Of a stretch of 50,102 nt of DNA, positions 23,451 through 32,216 are shown in pieces; the first letter of the stretch is position 1, and every line of letters begins with the position of its first letter. The stretch comes from a virus. Where the stretch lies: the IMG/VR virus record IMGVR_UViG_3300049460_000097, positions 1 to 50,102 of that record; one strand, written 5' to 3'. Under the pieces are notes generated by a model. The model did not search any database. It had not been told where the DNA came from and saw only the letters and a list, made by a program, of their open reading frames with translations. The position numbers and the translations under genes were made by a program.

Positions 23451-25091
23451 TTACTGCAAGCCTGCCTGCTGAAGCGCCACACTGGCATCGGCGACGTTCT
23501 TGCCGACCATGGATGCGTCATTAAGTGCCGAGGCCGCCTGCGTGATGCCCTGAACCTGCTTCTGCTGGTTCTGATCGGCCGTAGCCTGCGTCTCGTCCTT
23601 GAACCAATCGGCGGGCGCTCCGGTGCCCTTGACGGCATCCTTGGTCATCTTCTGCAGATCCATCGTGGCCGGCAGGGTCTCATCGTACTGAGCGCCGGCT
23701 GCGATGATCTGAACGCTCTCTTGGAAGGCGGAGACAAGCGCCCTGCCCTCGGCCGTATTGAGCGGGCTTTCGAAAGTGAATGTCACCTCCTGGCCCTGCA
23801 ACTCGTCCGGCATCTCGCCGATTTCGAACTGGCGATTGTGCAAAGCGATCTGGAAACCGGCATCAAGCAGCGGCAGATGATACTCGCTTTCGATCGGGCC
23901 GAAGAACGGCAGCGCGGCGCGGCGGAATTCTGCCACGCGCTGGCTGGTCTCATAGGCTGTCATCTCCCGTGTGTCGGGCAGGAACAGCTTGTTCAGCAAG
24001 AAAGCCTCGGCAATCATGCTGCGAACGTCGTTCTTCAGCTCAAGGCCTTGTGCGATGTTGCCGGATTCGATGGTCTGAAGCACCTTGCGGATATCGTCGG
24101 TGTCTTCGAGATCCACATAAGTCATGCCGCCGGCATACATGTTGACCGCATCGCGGAACATCGCGCCCTTGGCAACCATCGGCGGATCGACGGCCTTCTC
24201 ACCCTGCTCGAGGATGATGCGGGCCATCTGTTGGATCATGCGGCCATCGGGCAGCGAGTTGATCGTGGCCGGAGAGAACCCTTGCGGGAAGTTCGACAGC
24301 GTGCGCCAGCGCGGAACGACGTAATTGAATACCGGAAGGCCAGCCTCTCCAAGGATCTGCTCATGGTCCATGTCCATGTAGATCGAGAGGAACGGGAACT
24401 TGGCGTACTTGCGGCGCATCACCTTGTCGTCGCCGTAGATTTCATCGGTCGGCATGACGATGTGGCGGCAGTTAAACTCCTTCGACGGCTCCTCTGTGGC
24501 GGCCATCTTGATGTCCGAATGAACCTTGTCCTTGTAGACCTTGACCAGATTACGGGCGGTCTTCTTAATCTTGCGCTGGAGATGGTCGACCGTGCCGACC
24601 TCATTGATCATCCATGCGCAGTTCTTCGGATGCCAGGCGCGGAAGAGCATGTGATCTCGCGTCGGGCTTTCCTCGACCGATATGACGCCGTTACCGAACG
24701 CCACCCAGTCATGATCGACCTCGATCGTAGCTGCCGTGAATTTGGCGCGACGGTCATAAACCAGCCGGCGATAGCGCTTCGTGGCATATTCCAGCCAGCG
24801 CGCAGGGCCTGGAGCGTCGTCGATCTCTTCGCGTCCGGTCTTGATCTCGAACCAATCGCCTTGGCGAAGCATGGCAGACGGCGCATTGCCGAGCGTTTCG
24901 CGGGCCTGAACCGGATAGCTTTCCATCAGGTTCGTGCTGAAGTCATCGCCAAGGGTCAGCTCGCGCGTGAAGTCCGAGCGCATCGGGTAGTAATTGTCGG
25001 CGATATCCTGACACAGGCTATCCCACGGCTGCTTCTTGGTGAACAGCGCGTTGCCGATGCGGCAAAGCTCCTTGGCCTTTGCGTCATCCAT
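23451..25091 (-). CDS. Portal protein (podovirus head-to-tail connector)
   Basis: A 546-residue protein matching podovirus portal (head-tail connecting) proteins. It opens with MDDAKAKELCRIGNAL and a segment ending IADNYYPMRSDF; it has the conserved WLEYATKRYRRLVYDRR and VPRWRTLSNFPQGFSPA regions, and a Gln-rich C-terminal barrel region (residues ~495-546). It forms the dodecameric ring through which DNA is packaged and ejected. The start overlaps the preceding stop (TGATG). Length is typical of the family. Confidence 0.9.
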   Translation of the reverse strand: MDDAKAKELCRIGNALFTKKQPWDSLCQDIADNYYPMRSDFTRELTLGDDFSTNLMESYPVQARETLGNAPSAMLRQGDWFEIKTGREEIDDAPGPARWLEYATKRYRRLVYDRRAKFTAATIEVDHDWVAFGNGVISVEESPTRDHMLFRAWHPKNCAWMINEVGTVDHLQRKIKKTARNLVKVYKDKVHSDIKMAATEEPSKEFNCRHIVMPTDEIYGDDKVMRRKYAKFPFLSIYMDMDHEQILGEAGLPVFNYVVPRWRTLSNFPQGFSPATINSLPDGRMIQQMARIILEQGEKAVDPPMVAKGAMFRDAVNMYAGGMTYVDLEDTDDIRKVLQTIESGNIAQGLELKNDVRSMIAEAFLLNKLFLPDTREMTAYETSQRVAEFRRAALPFFGPIESEYHLPLLDAGFQIALHNRQFEIGEMPDELQGQEVTFTFESPLNTAEGRALVSAFQESVQIIAAGAQYDETLPATMDLQKMTKDAVKGTGAPADWFKDETQATADQNQQKQVQGITQAASALNDASMVGKNVADASVALQQAGLQ

Positions 25092-25317: not shown

Positions 25318-26901
25318 CTATCTCCTTGCTTTGTGCTTTGCATGCCCGAGATTGACCACGGGACGAATATGATCGCGGCGCTCTTGAGCCGCCTTTGGTC
25401 GCTTGAGGCCGCCAAGCCCAGAGGCGGAAAGCATGATGGTCGTGTCGCCCTTGTCAGGCGATCGGCCTAGCCGCTCTCTCATCTCTTCCTTTGGACCGAC
25501 GAGGATATCGCCGCCGGTCTTCTTGTTCGGCTTGACCTCGTAGCGATACGCGGCAAGATCAGCGGCTAGTTCAGGATCTGGCGGCAACGCAACGGTCGAC
25601 CCATATTCAGGATCAAGTTGCTCGCGGAACTGCCAGACGACTTGCGCCCTCAGGTTATAGAAGCGGAACATCCCGTCCCTGCTTGCGCCGGACGCTGTCT
25701 GGCTTCCCTTGAAGCCGTAGCAATCGACATCAGCATGGGCGAGCTGCGTCAGCGTATCGCCGCCGTAGCCGCCGCCAGCATCGACCACGACACGACAGCG
25801 GTCGCGCATGACCTTGACGATCTCGGCTGCGACGGTAGGGCCGTCTGGCGTGTCCTTGCCATCGAAGCTCTTGAACTGGCTGTACCAGAAATCGTATCGC
25901 GCCTGGATCTGCGTCTTGTCTGCTCCGCCTTGCGCAACGTCAGCCGCGACAGCAGTCATCGGCGTGTTGACCGGCGGCGAGGAAATCCACCTGATCTGCG
26001 CCTGCCTGATCCATTCGGACGGGATTACCTGCCATTCGTGATCGGCTCGTCCAGCATTGAAGTCACCATAGAGGAGCTGCGAACGAAGCGGCTCCGGCAA
26101 TGACTGAAGCTTGGCGCGATATCCTGTGTCCTTCAGATATGGGTTGTCGTTCAGACTGGCCGGGATGAAGGTCCGAGACATCGCCTCATATTCTTCACCA
26201 TTGCGCTCATACATGCCGGGTCCATCGACCCATTCCGTTTCGCTTGCGACGACGATTGCCCATCGAAGCTCGCCCGGAAGGGCCTTATTCGGGAATGACG
26301 GGTCCAACCATGGGGCAAACTCAACGATCATCCATTCGCCATCACCACCTCGAGGCGGGTTCGACCCGAGGATAACGCGGCATCGCTGCCCTTCCCTTGT
26401 CGACCGAAGCCAGCCGATCAGGGAAAAAACCTGCTCCTTTAGAAACTCGCCTGCCTCGTCAAAGGCTAGATAGTCCTTCGCGTTACCAGCGTGCTTGCGC
26501 CAGTCGTCCGGCTGGTTGAGACCCGCGAACTTCAGCCTGCCGCCGTCATTGCGCTTGAAGACGTTTTCATTGCCGCCGACGAACTTGCCGTAGTGCGGCT
26601 CTCCGACTTCCTTACAGAACTCTATCAGGCCGTCGAGCTGGACGGCTTCGCGTCGAAGGATCAGCCCATTGAAGTGGCCAGTGAAGTAAGCACCGATCTC
26701 CAATGCCGTCTTGCCGCCGCCTGCCTGCCCGCCGTAAAGCAGGATGTCAGCCTCGCTGAGCATCGCTGTCGTCTGCGGGCCAGGGTTCGGAAGGAACGGT
26801 CTATCCAGTTCTACCGCAGCCAGAGCCTCAAGCTCCTTGCGCTGCTCACCCGTCAGGTTCGCAATGACAGCCTCAAGCTGGCTTAGCTCAAGAGTTTGCA
26901 T
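25318..26901 (-). CDS. terL: Terminase large subunit (ATPase and nuclease)
   Basis: A 527-residue packaging motor. Walker A is GGQAGGGKTA (residues 57-66), Walker B YLAFDEAGE (144-152), followed by a coupling motif around LGSNPP (~180). The C-terminal nuclease domain shows AVAADVAQGGADKTQ (~311-325) and VVVDAGGGYGG (~362). It cuts and translocates phage DNA into the procapsid. It starts 14 bases inside the small terminase gene. All ATPase motifs are intact. Confidence 0.95.
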   Translation of the reverse strand: MQTLELSQLEAVIANLTGEQRKELEALAAVELDRPFLPNPGPQTTAMLSEADILLYGGQAGGGKTALEIGAYFTGHFNGLILRREAVQLDGLIEFCKEVGEPHYGKFVGGNENVFKRNDGGRLKFAGLNQPDDWRKHAGNAKDYLAFDEAGEFLKEQVFSLIGWLRSTREGQRCRVILGSNPPRGGDGEWMIVEFAPWLDPSFPNKALPGELRWAIVVASETEWVDGPGMYERNGEEYEAMSRTFIPASLNDNPYLKDTGYRAKLQSLPEPLRSQLLYGDFNAGRADHEWQVIPSEWIRQAQIRWISSPPVNTPMTAVAADVAQGGADKTQIQARYDFWYSQFKSFDGKDTPDGPTVAAEIVKVMRDRCRVVVDAGGGYGGDTLTQLAHADVDCYGFKGSQTASGASRDGMFRFYNLRAQVVWQFREQLDPEYGSTVALPPDPELAADLAAYRYEVKPNKKTGGDILVGPKEEMRERLGRSPDKGDTTIMLSASGLGGLKRPKAAQERRDHIRPVVNLGHAKHKARR

Positions 26902-27376
26902 TCATGCCCTTGGCGAGCAAAAGCGCTACAGCCTTTGCCAGATCTCTATCGGAAGTGGATTCCGTCTTGATCGGCTCACCGTCCTTGCCAGTGATTTCCC
27001 GCTTGTTGGTGTATGCGTTCCCGACTTCCTCGGCCGCCTGCTTGAGCAGCGACGACACCAGAACCATGTTGCCACGATCTTCAGCCTTCTCGGCCATGCG
27101 CTGCAGCGTGCGAAGACGAACCGCGCGATGGCTGATGGCGATAGAAGCTGTGTCCTCTAGGAAGGACTTGCGGGTCTTCTCGAACAGCAGCCGCCACTTG
27201 TCTGAGAGGTTGCTGCCGGCCTTCTTCGTAGGGTCGTACGTCTCGACCAGTTGCCTGCTGATATCGACGCCGAATTCCTTCTTGACTGAAGCGGCAGCGA
27301 TGGAAGGGCTATCGAAGCATGCCAGAGCCTGGACGACATAGGTTTTCACCTCATCGGTGAGCTTTGCTTTCGCCAT
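26888..27376 (-). CDS. terS: Terminase small subunit (DUF2280-like)
   Basis: A 162-residue protein starting MAKAKLTDEVKTYVVQALAC. This LTDEVKT...ACFDSPS...VKKEFGVDISRQLVETYDPTKKAG pattern and the C-terminal YTNKREITGKDG are typical of DUF2280 small terminases in proteobacterial phages. Residues ~1-45 form a helix-turn-helix for DNA recognition. It should pick the packaging start and regulate the large subunit, with which it overlaps. Confidence 0.88.
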   Translation of the reverse strand: MAKAKLTDEVKTYVVQALACFDSPSIAAASVKKEFGVDISRQLVETYDPTKKAGSNLSDKWRLLFEKTRKSFLEDTASIAISHRAVRLRTLQRMAEKAEDRGNMVLVSSLLKQAAEEVGNAYTNKREITGKDGEPIKTESTSDRDLAKAVALLLAKGMNANS

Positions 27377-27401: not shown

Positions 27402-28040
27402 TCAGGCGACACGCAGATTGCAGGTCCCGCACGCATGATCGATGCGAGCGTGGGCTATCTCTGGCGGGCGGTTGGCAGCTTCGACCATCTCACAAACACC
27501 TGAGGCATCAGCCCCATATCGACGGACAACGCCGATGAACTGTTCGACATCATGTCCCCGGATGGTGAATACTGGCTCGCCCGTCATCTTGTGGAACTTG
27601 GGAGCGCCGAATTCATCCACGTCCTGTGCGGCGTGATAAAGCTCGTGCTCGACCAGCGCCATGAACTCAGCGTCTCCGCATTGGAGGCAATACCCAGCAT
27701 CGAGCGTGATGATGAAATCCGGAGTGGTCCCGAACCATTCGATTACCTGTTGCTCAGCGCGGGCGCGGGACCATTTGCCCATAGCGCCTTGAGGTTTCCC
27801 CTCTTCGCACTGGCCGATGACCTGCTTGCCCTTGCGGGTGTTCTCGACGATCGTCCAGAGGTAGCCGATATGGGCTTCGGCCAGGTGCGCGTGATCTGGA
27901 TTGTAGACCCGCGAAGATTCGTCGAAGAATGTTGCCTTTATCCATTCAGCCATACCGACGGCCGGGATGAAGGTAGCAGACGCGCCGATGTCGAATAAGC
28001 TCTCTGGCGGCATCGGTCGTTTCGACATCGTGGCCGCCAT
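27402..28040 (-). CDS. Putative metallopeptidase-domain protein
   Basis: A 212-residue protein with a zinc-peptidase-like motif HELYHAAQD near residue 133 (HExxH with H in the fifth place), preceded by FMALVE, as in the putative phage metallopeptidase domain family. Four cysteines (CLQCGD, and CGTC near the C-terminus) may bind metal too. AAGGTAATCTG precedes the ATG. The neighbouring small terminase starts 25 bases beyond its stop. Substrate is unknown; a virion-assembly or anti-host role is possible. Confidence 0.7.
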   Translation of the reverse strand: MAATMSKRPMPPESLFDIGASATFIPAVGMAEWIKATFFDESSRVYNPDHAHLAEAHIGYLWTIVENTRKGKQVIGQCEEGKPQGAMGKWSRARAEQQVIEWFGTTPDFIITLDAGYCLQCGDAEFMALVEHELYHAAQDVDEFGAPKFHKMTGEPVFTIRGHDVEQFIGVVRRYGADASGVCEMVEAANRPPEIAHARIDHACGTCNLRVA

Positions 28041-29029: not shown

Positions 29030-29836
29030 CTACGCCTTTCCGGTGAAGGTCATATCGTGCTCGGCGCAATAGCGGCGGAAGGCTGCTTCGTGCAGTTCGC
29101 CAGCGGTCATGTCGATCGAGTGACCCATCGTGCCGCCCTTCCATGATCCCTTGCGCTTTCCGGTCTCGCCTGAGAACTCTATATCGAGAGAGCGCCTAAC
29201 TTTTGCGCGGCGGAAGAGCGATAGCCACTTGAAGTAGCCAGTGCCGAACCGCCACTCCATCTCTCCGACGTGGGTAGTCGCCGTCAGTCCCTCGCCATCA
29301 AAGTCCTTGAAGGCAAAGACAGCCCTTGGCATCGCGTCTTGGAATTCGCGCTGGATGCGCCAGGCATTGCGCCTGACTTCGATGTCGCTGCTTTCCCAGT
29401 CGGTGCGCAAATGCTCGCCATCGAGGCCATACCAAGACTTGCGGACATAGCGCCACTGCGTCCAGGGCAGGAAGCAGCTCCAGCTTTTGGTTGTCTCGCT
29501 GTCGTGCGTCTGGCGTCCAAGCCTGAGCGACAAGTGCCCTTCGCTCAGGGAGAAGCCGTATTCGCGCTCATCAACCTGATAATACCAGTCACGGCCCAGG
29601 CGCTCGACGGTCGCTGCGTCCCAAGAGACAGGGTGAACCTTCTCCATATATGGCTTAATGATCTGAGGCAGCCCGACGATCACCGTGAACCCATAGCAGC
29701 TAAAGCGAAGGCTGCAGCCGGGGTCTTCGTCATCGCCAGAACCCAGAACTAACGCCAGGTGCTTGAAGCTCTTGTCGCGGGCGAAGAGAAAAGGGCCGAG
29801 GTGGCGATCATTGTCGCCCCAGCGTCTTACGTGCAT
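29030..29836 (-). CDS. Hypothetical phage protein, tryptophan-rich
   Basis: A 268-residue protein starting MHVRRWGDNDRHLGPFLFAR. It has many aromatic residues (WTQWRYVRKSW, WESSD, GYFKWLSLFRR) and ends with a segment on milk-white-like GxW turns (GKRKGSWKGGTMGHSIDM). Similar proteins with this start are common in phages of alphaproteobacteria, but no function is known to me. AAGGA lies nine bases before the ATG at 29836; an in-frame extension to 29899 has no such site. Confidence 0.65.
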   Translation of the reverse strand: MHVRRWGDNDRHLGPFLFARDKSFKHLALVLGSGDDEDPGCSLRFSCYGFTVIVGLPQIIKPYMEKVHPVSWDAATVERLGRDWYYQVDEREYGFSLSEGHLSLRLGRQTHDSETTKSWSCFLPWTQWRYVRKSWYGLDGEHLRTDWESSDIEVRRNAWRIQREFQDAMPRAVFAFKDFDGEGLTATTHVGEMEWRFGTGYFKWLSLFRRAKVRRSLDIEFSGETGKRKGSWKGGTMGHSIDMTAGELHEAAFRRYCAEHDMTFTGKA

Positions 29837-30033
29837 ATCGGAATCCTTTGTCGGAAGGATGGACGAGCGGGACCGACATCCCGCCCGCCCGTTGCGCAAC
29901 TTCTCTCGATCTGTCGGGATCGATCTATTGATTCATCACTGATGAGAGGCCGGCTGGCCCACTTGGCGCTGTAATAATGAGGCTGGCGAGCCCGGAGCGG
30001 CAGCGCGGCGTCTTCTGCCACGAATGAGGCCAT
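29827..30033 (-). CDS. Possible small gene overlapping next start
   Basis: A 68-residue frame (MASFVAEDAALPLRARQPHY) in the 246-base gap between the genes at 30083 and 29836. It overlaps the start of the next gene by ten bases. Composition is basic and Arg/Pro-rich, which could be chance in GC-rich DNA; the ribosome binding site is weak, and a hairpin (CTTGTC...GACAAG) lies upstream of the start. Uncertain. Confidence 0.3.
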   Translation of the reverse strand: MASFVAEDAALPLRARQPHYYSAKWASRPLISDESIDRSRQIERSCATGGRDVGPARPSFRQRIPICT

Positions 30034-30082: not shown

Positions 30083-30334
30083 TTAGGAGACCTTGTCGAA
30101 GGTCAGCTGATATACGGCGCCGATTTCGAACTGATCGATGGCGGCCGGGTTGGTGATCGTCATGGCGATGTCACCGGACGGCGTCCACTTTGACCAATCG
30201 CCATTGCCTTCGGGCAGGCCCTGCAGATAGGTGCCGAAGGCCGCGCCGAGCTTGACCTCGACATTGACGGCATCAGCCTGACCCGTGGCGCGGTGATTGA
30301 TTTCCTTCACGTAGAACATTGCTTGGACGGACAT
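30083..30334 (-). CDS. Hypothetical phage protein
   Basis: An 83-residue, strand-rich protein (MSVQAMFYVKEINHRATG, then VNVEVKLGAAFGTYLQGLPEG and a final QFEIGAVYQLTFDK). Proteins of this size ending in a YxLTFxK-type strand occur in rhizobial phages, function unknown. AAGGAG precedes the start. It overlaps the preceding gene by 28 bases. Confidence 0.6.
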   Translation of the reverse strand: MSVQAMFYVKEINHRATGQADAVNVEVKLGAAFGTYLQGLPEGNGDWSKWTPSGDIAMTITNPAAIDQFEIGAVYQLTFDKVS

Positions 30335-30570
30335 TCGTCTTCTCCTTTGTTGGCCCGGTTACCGCCGGACGCGGATGGAATTTGGCCAAGATCATGGCGC
30401 TGGACGTATCTGCCGTTCTCGATCGTCACCGATCGCATCGCGCAAGGACAAACGGGCTGACCGTTCTGCGGGCCAATGCAGTTGCAAGCATGCGTGCCTG
30501 CGCCAATCTCATGATCCCCTTCAAGAGCAGCCTGGCGCATGAACCAATCCTTGACGATGTTCATTTGCAT
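30307..30570 (-). CDS. Cysteine-rich small protein
   Basis: An 87-residue protein starting MQMNIVKDWFMRQAALEG. The motif HACNCIGPQNGQPVCPC around residue 35 has four cysteines, suggesting a metal site or disulfides. GGAGAG lies before the ATG at 30570; an upstream extension reaches through the terminator hairpin and is rejected. It is the first gene after the putative late promoter and terminators. Confidence 0.6.
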   Translation of the reverse strand: MQMNIVKDWFMRQAALEGDHEIGAGTHACNCIGPQNGQPVCPCAMRSVTIENGRYVQRHDLGQIPSASGGNRANKGEDECPSKQCST

Positions 30571-30586
30571 GGCTCTCTCCAAAACG

Positions 30587-30604
30587 AAAACCCGCCGACC
30601 GGGT
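30587..30604 (-). terminator. Terminator just before the late genes
   Basis: On the minus strand ACCCG and CGGGT pair around a five-base loop and are followed by TTTT then CGTTTT. It sits about 20 bases before the first late gene start (30570), so read-through or antitermination would be needed for late expression. The stem is short. Confidence 0.6.
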
Positions 30605-30780
30605 GACAATCCGGTGACGGGGTCTCTGGCGCTAAACTGAATTGGTCGGGTAGGTGAGCAAGACACCTACGCAGCGATCCTCTTGCCGGCAACACGCTGC
30701 GCTTCCCGATTGATGACCCGTAACGGTGCGCTTCTACGAGAGGCGGAGCGGGTGCTGTTGTCGTTGAGGCGACAAGGATT

Positions 30781-30809
30781 GGCGAGACATCAAAGCCTGT
30801 AGTCTCGCC
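30781..30809. other. Stem-loop in control region
   Basis: Perfect 8-bp inverted repeat GGCGAGAC / GTCTCGCC with a 13-base loop. There is no T-tract, so it may be an RNA element such as a site for an antitermination factor, or chance. Confidence 0.45.
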
Positions 30810-30827
30810 GGCATTCGCCTCGAATAG

Positions 30828-30846
30828 AAAAACCGCCCGGTGGCGG
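30828..30846 (-). terminator. Rho-independent terminator (tR'-like)
   Basis: On the minus strand CCGCC and GGCGG pair around ACCG and are followed by TTTTT (30832-30828). It lies about 40-50 bases downstream of the promoter candidate at 30917-30889. Confidence 0.8.
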
Positions 30847-30888
30847 CTGGTTGAGTGTGCGATCTTCGCAAATCACCACTATAGTTAA

Positions 30889-30917
30889 TCTATAGCTATT
30901 TCGCTTAACCGGAGCAA
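30889..30917 (-). promoter_or_regulatory. Candidate late promoter with palindrome
   Basis: On the minus strand TTGCTC (30917-30912) and TATAGA (30894-30889) are separated by 17 bases. The -10 overlaps a 17-base palindrome-like element, CTATAGATTAACTATAG (30895-30879), whose halves are identical CTATAG boxes. It lies right after the end of the 185-residue gene and before a terminator, as in a Q-dependent late promoter. Confidence 0.55.
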
Positions 30918-30924
30918 TAGCGCG

Positions 30925-31482
30925 TCAAGCACTTTTTCGCTTAGTCCCCCGGTTTGCATAGCCCCATGTCCGCGCCAGTTCGTCAAGCCCATCCTTTAGA
31001 TAATCTGTAAGCGTGTGGCGTTCCCGCTGCGTCTTCGCCAGCTCCTGGATCGCATAGCCTTGACCAGCAATCTTGCTCATGATGTCGTAGGCGCGAACGC
31101 CGAGAATTTCTTGCGCTCTCTTCAGTTCTTTTCCTGCGCGGATTTGACGCTCTGTCAGAGGTTCGCGCGCGCCGCCGCCATCGACGTGCTCACGGCTATA
31201 GTCGAACGATCCGGAACCGGCCCCGCCCATAGCCTCCCATAAGCCGCGGAACTTGTCGGCCGCCGCCTTCTGGGAATCGTCTATGAGTTTCCGCGCCGAA
31301 AGCGTGGTGATAGCGCTCTCCCGGATATTGATCTGCGCCTTGGTCTTGAGCGGATTGGCGCCCTCACCATCATGGGCTTTGGAATAGTAGGGATTGTCGA
31401 CGTAGACCGACTGCAGTTTTGCCTTTTCCTGCCACCCATCGATGATCTTCTTTTTCTTCTTCGCTACCTTATCGTCCGCCAT
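30925..31482 (-). CDS. Possible late-gene regulator (antiterminator position)
   Basis: A 185-residue basic protein (MADDKVAKKKKKIIDGWQEK). The C-terminal third (residues ~105-172: REPLTERQIRAGKELKRAQE, then KIAGQGYAIQELAKTQRERHTLTDYLKDGLDELARTWGY) looks like a helical, sigma- or DUF6456-like DNA-binding region. It is the last gene before the control region that has promoter, terminators and late genes, the place lambda Q occupies. Function as antiterminator is inferred from position and basic character; a transcription activator is equally possible. Confidence 0.55.
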   Translation of the reverse strand: MADDKVAKKKKKIIDGWQEKAKLQSVYVDNPYYSKAHDGEGANPLKTKAQINIRESAITTLSARKLIDDSQKAAADKFRGLWEAMGGAGSGSFDYSREHVDGGGAREPLTERQIRAGKELKRAQEILGVRAYDIMSKIAGQGYAIQELAKTQRERHTLTDYLKDGLDELARTWGYANRGTKRKSA

Positions 31483-31513: not shown

Positions 31514-31735
31514 TTATCGAAAATTCGGGTGGGTGATCGCCGATAGGATCATGTCCATGGCGATCGCCTTGTTTGTGTGCTGGGAGCGCCCGATATCGAC
31601 GTAGGCATGGATGCCGCTCGGGATATGAGTGATGCGGACGCCGGGGCACGTTCCAACATGCTGGCCGCCGCGCTGGTGGATGCCGGGGATCGGCCACACC
31701 TCGATCTTCAGATCTTCGATAGGAATGTCGCTCAT
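31514..31735 (-). CDS. Stand-alone GGQ release-factor-like domain protein
   Basis: A 73-residue protein that is essentially the catalytic domain of class-I peptide release factors: GGQ at residues 23-25 in QRGGQHVGTCPGVRITHIPS, then GIHAYVDIGRSQHTNKAIAM, matching the RF signature regions GGQHVN...AVRITHxPTG and RSQHxNKxxAM. In release factors GGQ triggers peptidyl-tRNA hydrolysis on the ribosome. No decoding domain and no ArfB-type C-terminal tail is present. The Asn that follows HV in most RFs is Gly here. It is translated from ATGA-coupled genes. Possible roles are ribosome rescue, modulation of host termination, or something unrelated. Confidence 0.8.
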   Translation of the reverse strand: MSDIPIEDLKIEVWPIPGIHQRGGQHVGTCPGVRITHIPSGIHAYVDIGRSQHTNKAIAMDMILSAITHPNFR

Positions 31736-32013
31736 CGTGCCGCCACCATTCGAAACAGGCTCTCAGCCCGCGCGAACTTCGCTTCCTTGACCGACGGGCC
31801 GTCGAACATCTCGCCTCTGATTGGCTTGCCGTTCATGAAGTTCAGCATGTGCTTGAGGCACTCTTCAGCAGCTTCGCCTTTGCTGCCGAACACCTTCGGC
31901 TTGCCGCCCGCGTCCATGATCGGAGACGGATGAGCGTCCCGGCAAAGGCGGATCATCGCCAAATATTTTCCGTTCGGTAGGCGATACGGATCTGCTGCGT
32001 ATCGATTGGTCAT
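31732..32013 (-). CDS. Hypothetical protein coupled to GGQ gene
   Basis: A 93-residue protein starting MTNRYAADPYRLPNGKYLAM, mainly helical in its second half (AAEECLKHMLNFMNGKPI). The start at 32013 overlaps the stop of the LuxR-type gene (TGATG); two further upstream in-frame ATGs are possible. The stop overlaps the GGQ gene start (ATGA), so the two proteins are likely made together. No family recognised. Confidence 0.6.
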   Translation of the reverse strand: MTNRYAADPYRLPNGKYLAMIRLCRDAHPSPIMDAGGKPKVFGSKGEAAEECLKHMLNFMNGKPIRGEMFDGPSVKEAKFARAESLFRMVAAR

Positions 32014-32216
32014 CAATGAATCCATCCGCATCGAAGAGCTGTTGCGACAAAGACCAATGTCGAATTGCCGGCCCCTACCCGTTCTCGGGCTCGCTCCATC
32101 CTGTTGCTTACCGCTGCTTCGCTGATGCCAGCGTCATGAGCTATCTGCTTGAGGACGTGGCCATCGGCGATCTTCTGAAGGATCTCGATTTCGACTTGCT
32201 TGAGAGGGCACGTCAT
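32013..32216 (-). CDS. LuxR-type helix-turn-helix protein
   Basis: A 67-residue protein that is only a LuxR/sigma-4-type DNA-binding domain: TCPLKQVEIEILQKIADGHV, then KQIAHDAGISEAAVSNRMERARERVGA, the last being the recognition helix. Without a sensor domain it probably acts as a small transcription regulator. It starts as ATGA with the upstream gene's stop. Confidence 0.75.
   Translation of the reverse strand: MTCPLKQVEIEILQKIADGHVLKQIAHDAGISEAAVSNRMERARERVGAGNSTLVFVATALRCGWIH

Follow-up and report, generated by a model that had tools for sequence, protein, structure and literature searches.

What switches on the late genes of a temperate rhizobial phage, and does the small gene in front of them encode a Q-type antiterminator? 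The window (the whole stretch analysed, 50,102 nt of virus record IMGVR_UViG_3300049460_000097) carries integrase, S24-type repressor, and RecT genes, together with O-like replication and Holliday-junction-resolvase (HJR) genes and, among its late genes, those for terminase, head-tail adaptor, and major head protein. The minus strand holds both the late genes and the replication genes examined, and ORF 30925-31482 sits between the two groups, where a Q-type gene is found relative to replication/recombination and late genes. A preliminary description had proposed a Q-like order of gene, promoter, terminator, and late genes for this region. That order is conserved across many of about fifty phage loci, with a predicted pause element present as well. 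The late genes past the terminators share one strand and comprise small ORFs followed by the terminase large subunit, the head-tail adaptor, and the major head protein. We consider it very probable that a temperate rhizobial phage uses this locus as a Q-type switch for its late genes, one that works like lambda Q or AlpA; we infer the antitermination function from the anatomy of the locus and from homology to GafZ. Coordinates are collected in Table 1.

Table 1. Features of the putative late-gene switch and of neighbouring late genes in the window.
Feature	Position	Strand	Basis or remark
Q-like antiterminator gene (putative), 185 aa, GafZ/DUF6456-related	30925-31482	-	Sequence, homology
−35 element TTGCTC (most relatives: TTGNNN)	30912-30917	-	
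Putative binding element (QBE/ZBE-like), near-palindrome CGGTTAAGCG	30902-30911	-	Clade-specific in relatives
−10 element TATAGA, 17 nt past −35	30889-30894	-	
Inferred transcription start (+1)	30882	-	From −10 spacing
−10-like hexamer TATAGT at −1 to +5, predicted sigma-dependent pause element	30878-30883	-	
Near-invariant GGTGATTTGCG at +6 to +16	30867-30877	-	
5' leader RNA hairpin (+3 to +29)	30854-30880	-	
First intrinsic terminator (tR'-like), stem 30848-30831, then T-rich tail	30823-30848	-	
Second, weaker terminator-like hairpin before first late ORF	30580-30604	-	
First ORF downstream of terminators, product unknown	30307-30570	-	
Acb3-family CBASS inhibitor gene, inside presumed late operon	29030-29899	-	Pfam match
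DUF2280 protein directly before TerL; probable small terminase, by position	26888-27376	-	
Terminase large subunit	25318-26901	-	
Head-tail adaptor (portal-type) protein	23451-25091	-	

The ORF is a real gene: its product matches PHROG 21451 (8.5e-66), a family annotated as 'unknown function', and is conserved in many phages. The protein is basic, as first described (21 K and 14 R against 14 D and 12 E), with a C-terminal helix-turn-helix predicted at about residues 129-173. Scans of IMG/VR and GTDB genomes gathered relatives from dozens of rhizobial phages and prophages, with Rhizobium, Allorhizobium, Mesorhizobium, and Bradyrhizobium as named hosts. Identity is 69-89% for the close relatives, 42-57% for the broad set, and 25-33% for the distant members (L002, L079, and L080). 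The neighbourhood is shared as well. In many loci HJR- and RepO-like genes lie upstream. Downstream, at 1-3 kb, many of the loci tested have a metallopeptidase gene and then the terminase genes (TerS/TerL), and the intervening genes vary.

Several neighbours are worth recording in their own right. In many relatives a 99-aa ORF without a Pfam or PHROG match (orf31732; 31732-32031 on the minus strand of the window) lies just upstream of the antiterminator gene; it is 52-80% conserved and a possible partner. The metallopeptidase-type gene (27402-28040, minus strand) is a transposase according to PHROG and a phage metallopeptidase according to Pfam (PF18894, 124 bits), and its place before the small terminase is syntenic in many relatives. 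The presumed late operon also encodes, just past the late promoter, a 289-aa protein matching Acb3 CBASS inhibitors (PF25187, 268.9 bits), an odd position for an early-acting anti-defence gene.

The protein was thought to be unlike lambda Q, and this applies equally to the 21Q and 82Q families: none of forty members matched lambda Q (PF03589), 21Q (PF06530), or 82Q (PF06323) at E≤1. Single-protein searches of Pfam and of PDB sequences gave nothing useful, and an NCBIfam search for the family gave no match. An AlphaFold model (two alignments) reached modest confidence (pLDDT 67), and Foldseek found no significant match for it to 21Q, lambda Q, or sigma region 4 in the PDB. A family-wide Pfam scan, the only Pfam search in which the domain appeared, matched thirty-two of the forty members to DUF6456 (PF20057; best E 2.1e-5), with members shown singly falling under the curated cut-off. 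Alignment with hhalign to DUF6456 proteins of alphaproteobacterial genomes gave a probability of 99.1% over 135 columns, and 97.3% when only strong members were used; reversed and shuffled controls reached at most 1%. By these comparisons, the 185-aa protein is homologous to DUF6456, i.e. to the GafZ/GafA regulators of gene transfer agents (GTAs), over about 135 residues of their C-terminal domain. Experiments support GafZ as an antiterminator, one that depends on an inverted repeat within the −35/−10 spacer of the structural-gene promoter; its authors found that it resembles no known antiterminator in sequence or structure, and they left the mechanism open (PMC11150451).

One chromosomal DUF6456 gene, in Rhizobium sp. 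Root1203 (L081), lies behind mucR and a DnaA_C-domain gene, with a SufE-like ORF nearby on the opposite strand (seen by eye). A mucR/DnaA_C/SufE-type neighbourhood has been described for split gafA in Hyphomicrobiales (PMC9638019), and the L081 gene, whose surroundings match it, is therefore gafZ. Chromosomal GafZ-type proteins make up a clade of their own (support 98), the phage proteins lying outside it, in a tree that is unrooted in effect and therefore gives no direction of descent. Weak DUF6456 proteins from alphaproteobacterial genomes (L084 and L095-L099) do not fall within that GafZ clade and are possible additional antiterminators of prophages. The phage protein (P0001) differs from GafZ/GafA in having no fused DnaA-like part. 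A DnaA-like GafY partner adjoins the chromosomal gafZ in L081; none was found with the window protein, the two upstream ORFs tested having no DnaA_C match. Also unlike gafZ, the phage gene stands directly before its own putative target promoter, and the tested chromosomal DUF6456 genes have no such promoter and pause block behind them. A search for the GafZ site motif across alphaproteobacterial genomes was swamped by chance matches, and a search for promoters ahead of putative GTA terminase genes gave no clear loading site.

We compared the block behind the gene across fifty distinct, non-redundant loci, which are related, so that the counts given here are not independent. It is in register at all fifty, with its core 24-50 nt past the stop codon of the gene, and runs in the order −35, clade-specific and mostly palindromic spacer element, −10, second −10-like hexamer, and GGTGATTTGCG. 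Forty-one loci score 12-13 of 13, and background windows never exceed 10/13. The minus strand of the window has TTGCTC, CGGTTAAGCG, AAATAGC, TATAGA, TTAAC, TATAGT, and GGTGATTTGCG in order. The promoter proposed earlier (TTGCTC, 17 nt, TATAGA, start at about 30882) is borne out by this conservation, from which it draws its significance; consensus alone would not single it out, and a strict promoter scan, whose total was below that of shuffles, did not list it. What had been read as a CTATAG palindrome is not an operator: it is the −10 followed by the −10-like hexamer TATAGT.

Q and AlpA systems require a −10-like pause element in the initially transcribed region (PMC6606751, PMC9371919). The hexamer in our loci has A+1 kept in 48/50 and T+5 in 49/50, with the middle base (+3) free. 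Such rigidity at A2 and T6 with freedom inside is the pattern predicted for recognition by sigma region 2. In AlpA of Pseudomonas aeruginosa, the −10-like element occupies the identical −1 to +5, substitution of A+1 or T+5 impairs antitermination, and a spacer element and a downstream terminator are likewise present (PMC9371919). The likeness does not extend to the proteins, for which no sequence match was found; Foldseek lists an AlpA chain only at E 6.8, which is not significant. In one clade the gap between the −10 and the −10-like hexamer is 3 nt instead of 5, and the distance from hexamer to GGTGATTTGCG is constant.

Mean information is 1.8 bits at +6 to +16 and falls beyond that to 0.36 and then 0.11. 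GGTGATTTGCG matches the elemental pause consensus G-10 Y-1 G+1 (PMC7057261), and this fit places the RNA 3' end, by prediction, near +15. The conservation of GGTGATTTGCG is stricter than an elemental pause ought to need and suggests additional contacts, with protein, DNA, or RNA, beyond pausing. The locus resembles bacteriophage Q systems in having the gene before the late genes, the position of the putative binding element, the −10-like element, and the downstream terminator, and differs from them in the near-invariant GGTGATTTGCG after the −10-like element. We know of no comparable near-invariant element at that position in the lambda Q, 21Q, or 82Q systems, and we regard the conservation of GGTGATTTGCG as the most novel feature of the locus.

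An IMG/VR scan found fifty-five exact TATNGTGGTGATTTGCG matches in viral contigs, thirty-seven of them with a family member directly upstream. One of the others (L161) is cut off at a contig edge; the rest have no promoter context and are, by a rough estimate, about as many as expected by chance. In viral contigs, TATNGTGGTGATTTGCG with promoter context was found only behind this gene family. A near-invariant block that several phages carry no more than a few kb from their terminase genes might be conserved for some other reason, for example as a packaging or integration site beside a gene of unrelated function. We give that account almost no weight: the block has promoter spacing and a −35/−10/−10-like register, the terminase genes are 1-3 kb away with variable genes between, and the neighbouring gene is a GafZ homologue. 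At the equivalent place, the distant members L079, L080, and L002 have a different conserved promoter-like sequence, TTTGCTGGTCCAGCAAATCACCTG. It contains a 17-bp palindrome, TTTGCTGGTCCAGCAAA, in L079 and L080 and is followed by a terminator-like hairpin in L002 and L079; a search with it returned only the two contigs already known.

Between −35 and −10, where GafZ has its site, the phage loci have a putative spacer element whose sequence changes by clade (CGTTACAACG, CGCTTAAGCG, CGCGTACGCG, CAAGGTTAACCTTG, and others). Its palindrome score averages 2.9 against 0.8 in shuffles, with 16/50 loci individually at p <0.05; the window's own copy is an imperfect palindrome, and several relatives show no clear one. 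Spacer divergence tracks the predicted recognition helix (residues 152-173) after correction for the remaining protein (partial Mantel r 0.49, p 5e-4). Because region 61-88 correlates as strongly (r 0.51), this is supportive but not decisive for the spacer as the putative binding site of the 185-aa protein.

A palindromic site adjoining a promoter could instead belong to a conventional activator or autoregulator that acts only on initiation, the terminator and pause motifs then being incidental. An activator role, exerted through RNAP omega, was the first one described for GafA (PMC9638019), and a terminator-free reporter fell about fourfold on GafZ deletion (PMC11150451). Yet an activator site inside a 17-nt spacer would be unusual, and activation needs neither a −10-like hexamer, nor a near-invariant transcribed block to +16, nor a positioned terminator. 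We judge pure activation very improbable and prefer a Q-type switch.

The first terminator is where the preliminary description had placed it, a stem followed by a T run, and a terminator at this spot is common among relatives. In 24/50 loci, the window included, one lies at about +35 to +52, shortly downstream as in Q systems; random 150-nt stretches from the same loci contain one in 1.1% of cases. The other 26/50 loci have no terminator within 150 nt and carry other sequence there. Across the scanned region, terminator-like sites are not clearly enriched overall (20 vs 14.7 expected). Read by eye, tRNA-like sequences seem to replace the first terminator in L004, L017, and L068. The second terminator stood in part: its hairpin is present (30604-30590) but weaker, with a region z of −1.5, and similar sequence was seen only in L016 and L039.

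Folding of the entire leader gives −22.5 kcal/mol (z −3.1). Within its 5' hairpin, GGUGAUU pairs with a locus-specific partner, and in 23/50 loci the hairpin is stabler than versions with the 3' strand shuffled (p<0.05). RNA covariation analysis of the hairpin gave no support, and covariation cannot be shown here because the 5' strand is nearly invariant. A favoured 5' hairpin followed by a terminator might suggest that a leader RNA or DNA element attenuates the late genes without the adjacent protein, as a riboswitch-like or host-factor site would. We think this very unlikely: hairpin and terminator fold together and are not mutually exclusive, covariation support is absent, and the viral-contig scan turned up the element in promoter context nowhere but behind members of this family.

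For a Q-type switch we propose the following sequence of events. RNA polymerase would start at about 30882, and sigma region 2 would make −10-like contacts at −1 to +5, giving a pause with an RNA of ~15 nt at GGTGATTTGCG. Without the protein, polymerase would escape the pause and stop at the terminator ending near +52. Once the 185-residue protein had accumulated, its C-terminal helix-turn-helix would bind the element between −35 and −10, and the protein would be handed over to the paused polymerase. The modified polymerase would then read through both terminators into the terminase, head, and tail genes.

A broader proposal, to which we assign an even chance, is that GafZ-type phage proteins are a fourth family of late antiterminators that load at a sigma-dependent pause built on GGTGATTTGCG and the leader hairpin, with GafZ/GafA being domesticated relatives of a phage Q protein of this type. 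Formed outside the loaded polymerase, the hairpin might hold the factor to the RNA or prevent backtracking. No Q system of rhizobial phages turned up in the literature searched. New here are a GafZ-type family of probable Q proteins in phages, with candidate loading sites located by sequence, and a near-invariant transcribed element and a leader hairpin, neither of which is known from other Q systems. If the reading is right, it would add a further independent solution to Q-type antitermination, give the conserved 'unknown' family PHROG 21451 a named and testable function, and tie a regulator of alphaproteobacterial GTAs to phage late-gene switches. The set also supplies about fifty natural, putative loading sites for GafZ homologues, in which pause element, spacer element, and terminator keep a fixed spacing, a collection useful for in vitro work and for the question of GTA domestication. 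Rhizobium sp. Root1203 has both a prophage copy of the family (L019) and the chromosomal gafYZ (L081), and in this strain the control of the prophage and that of the GTA could conceivably cross-talk.
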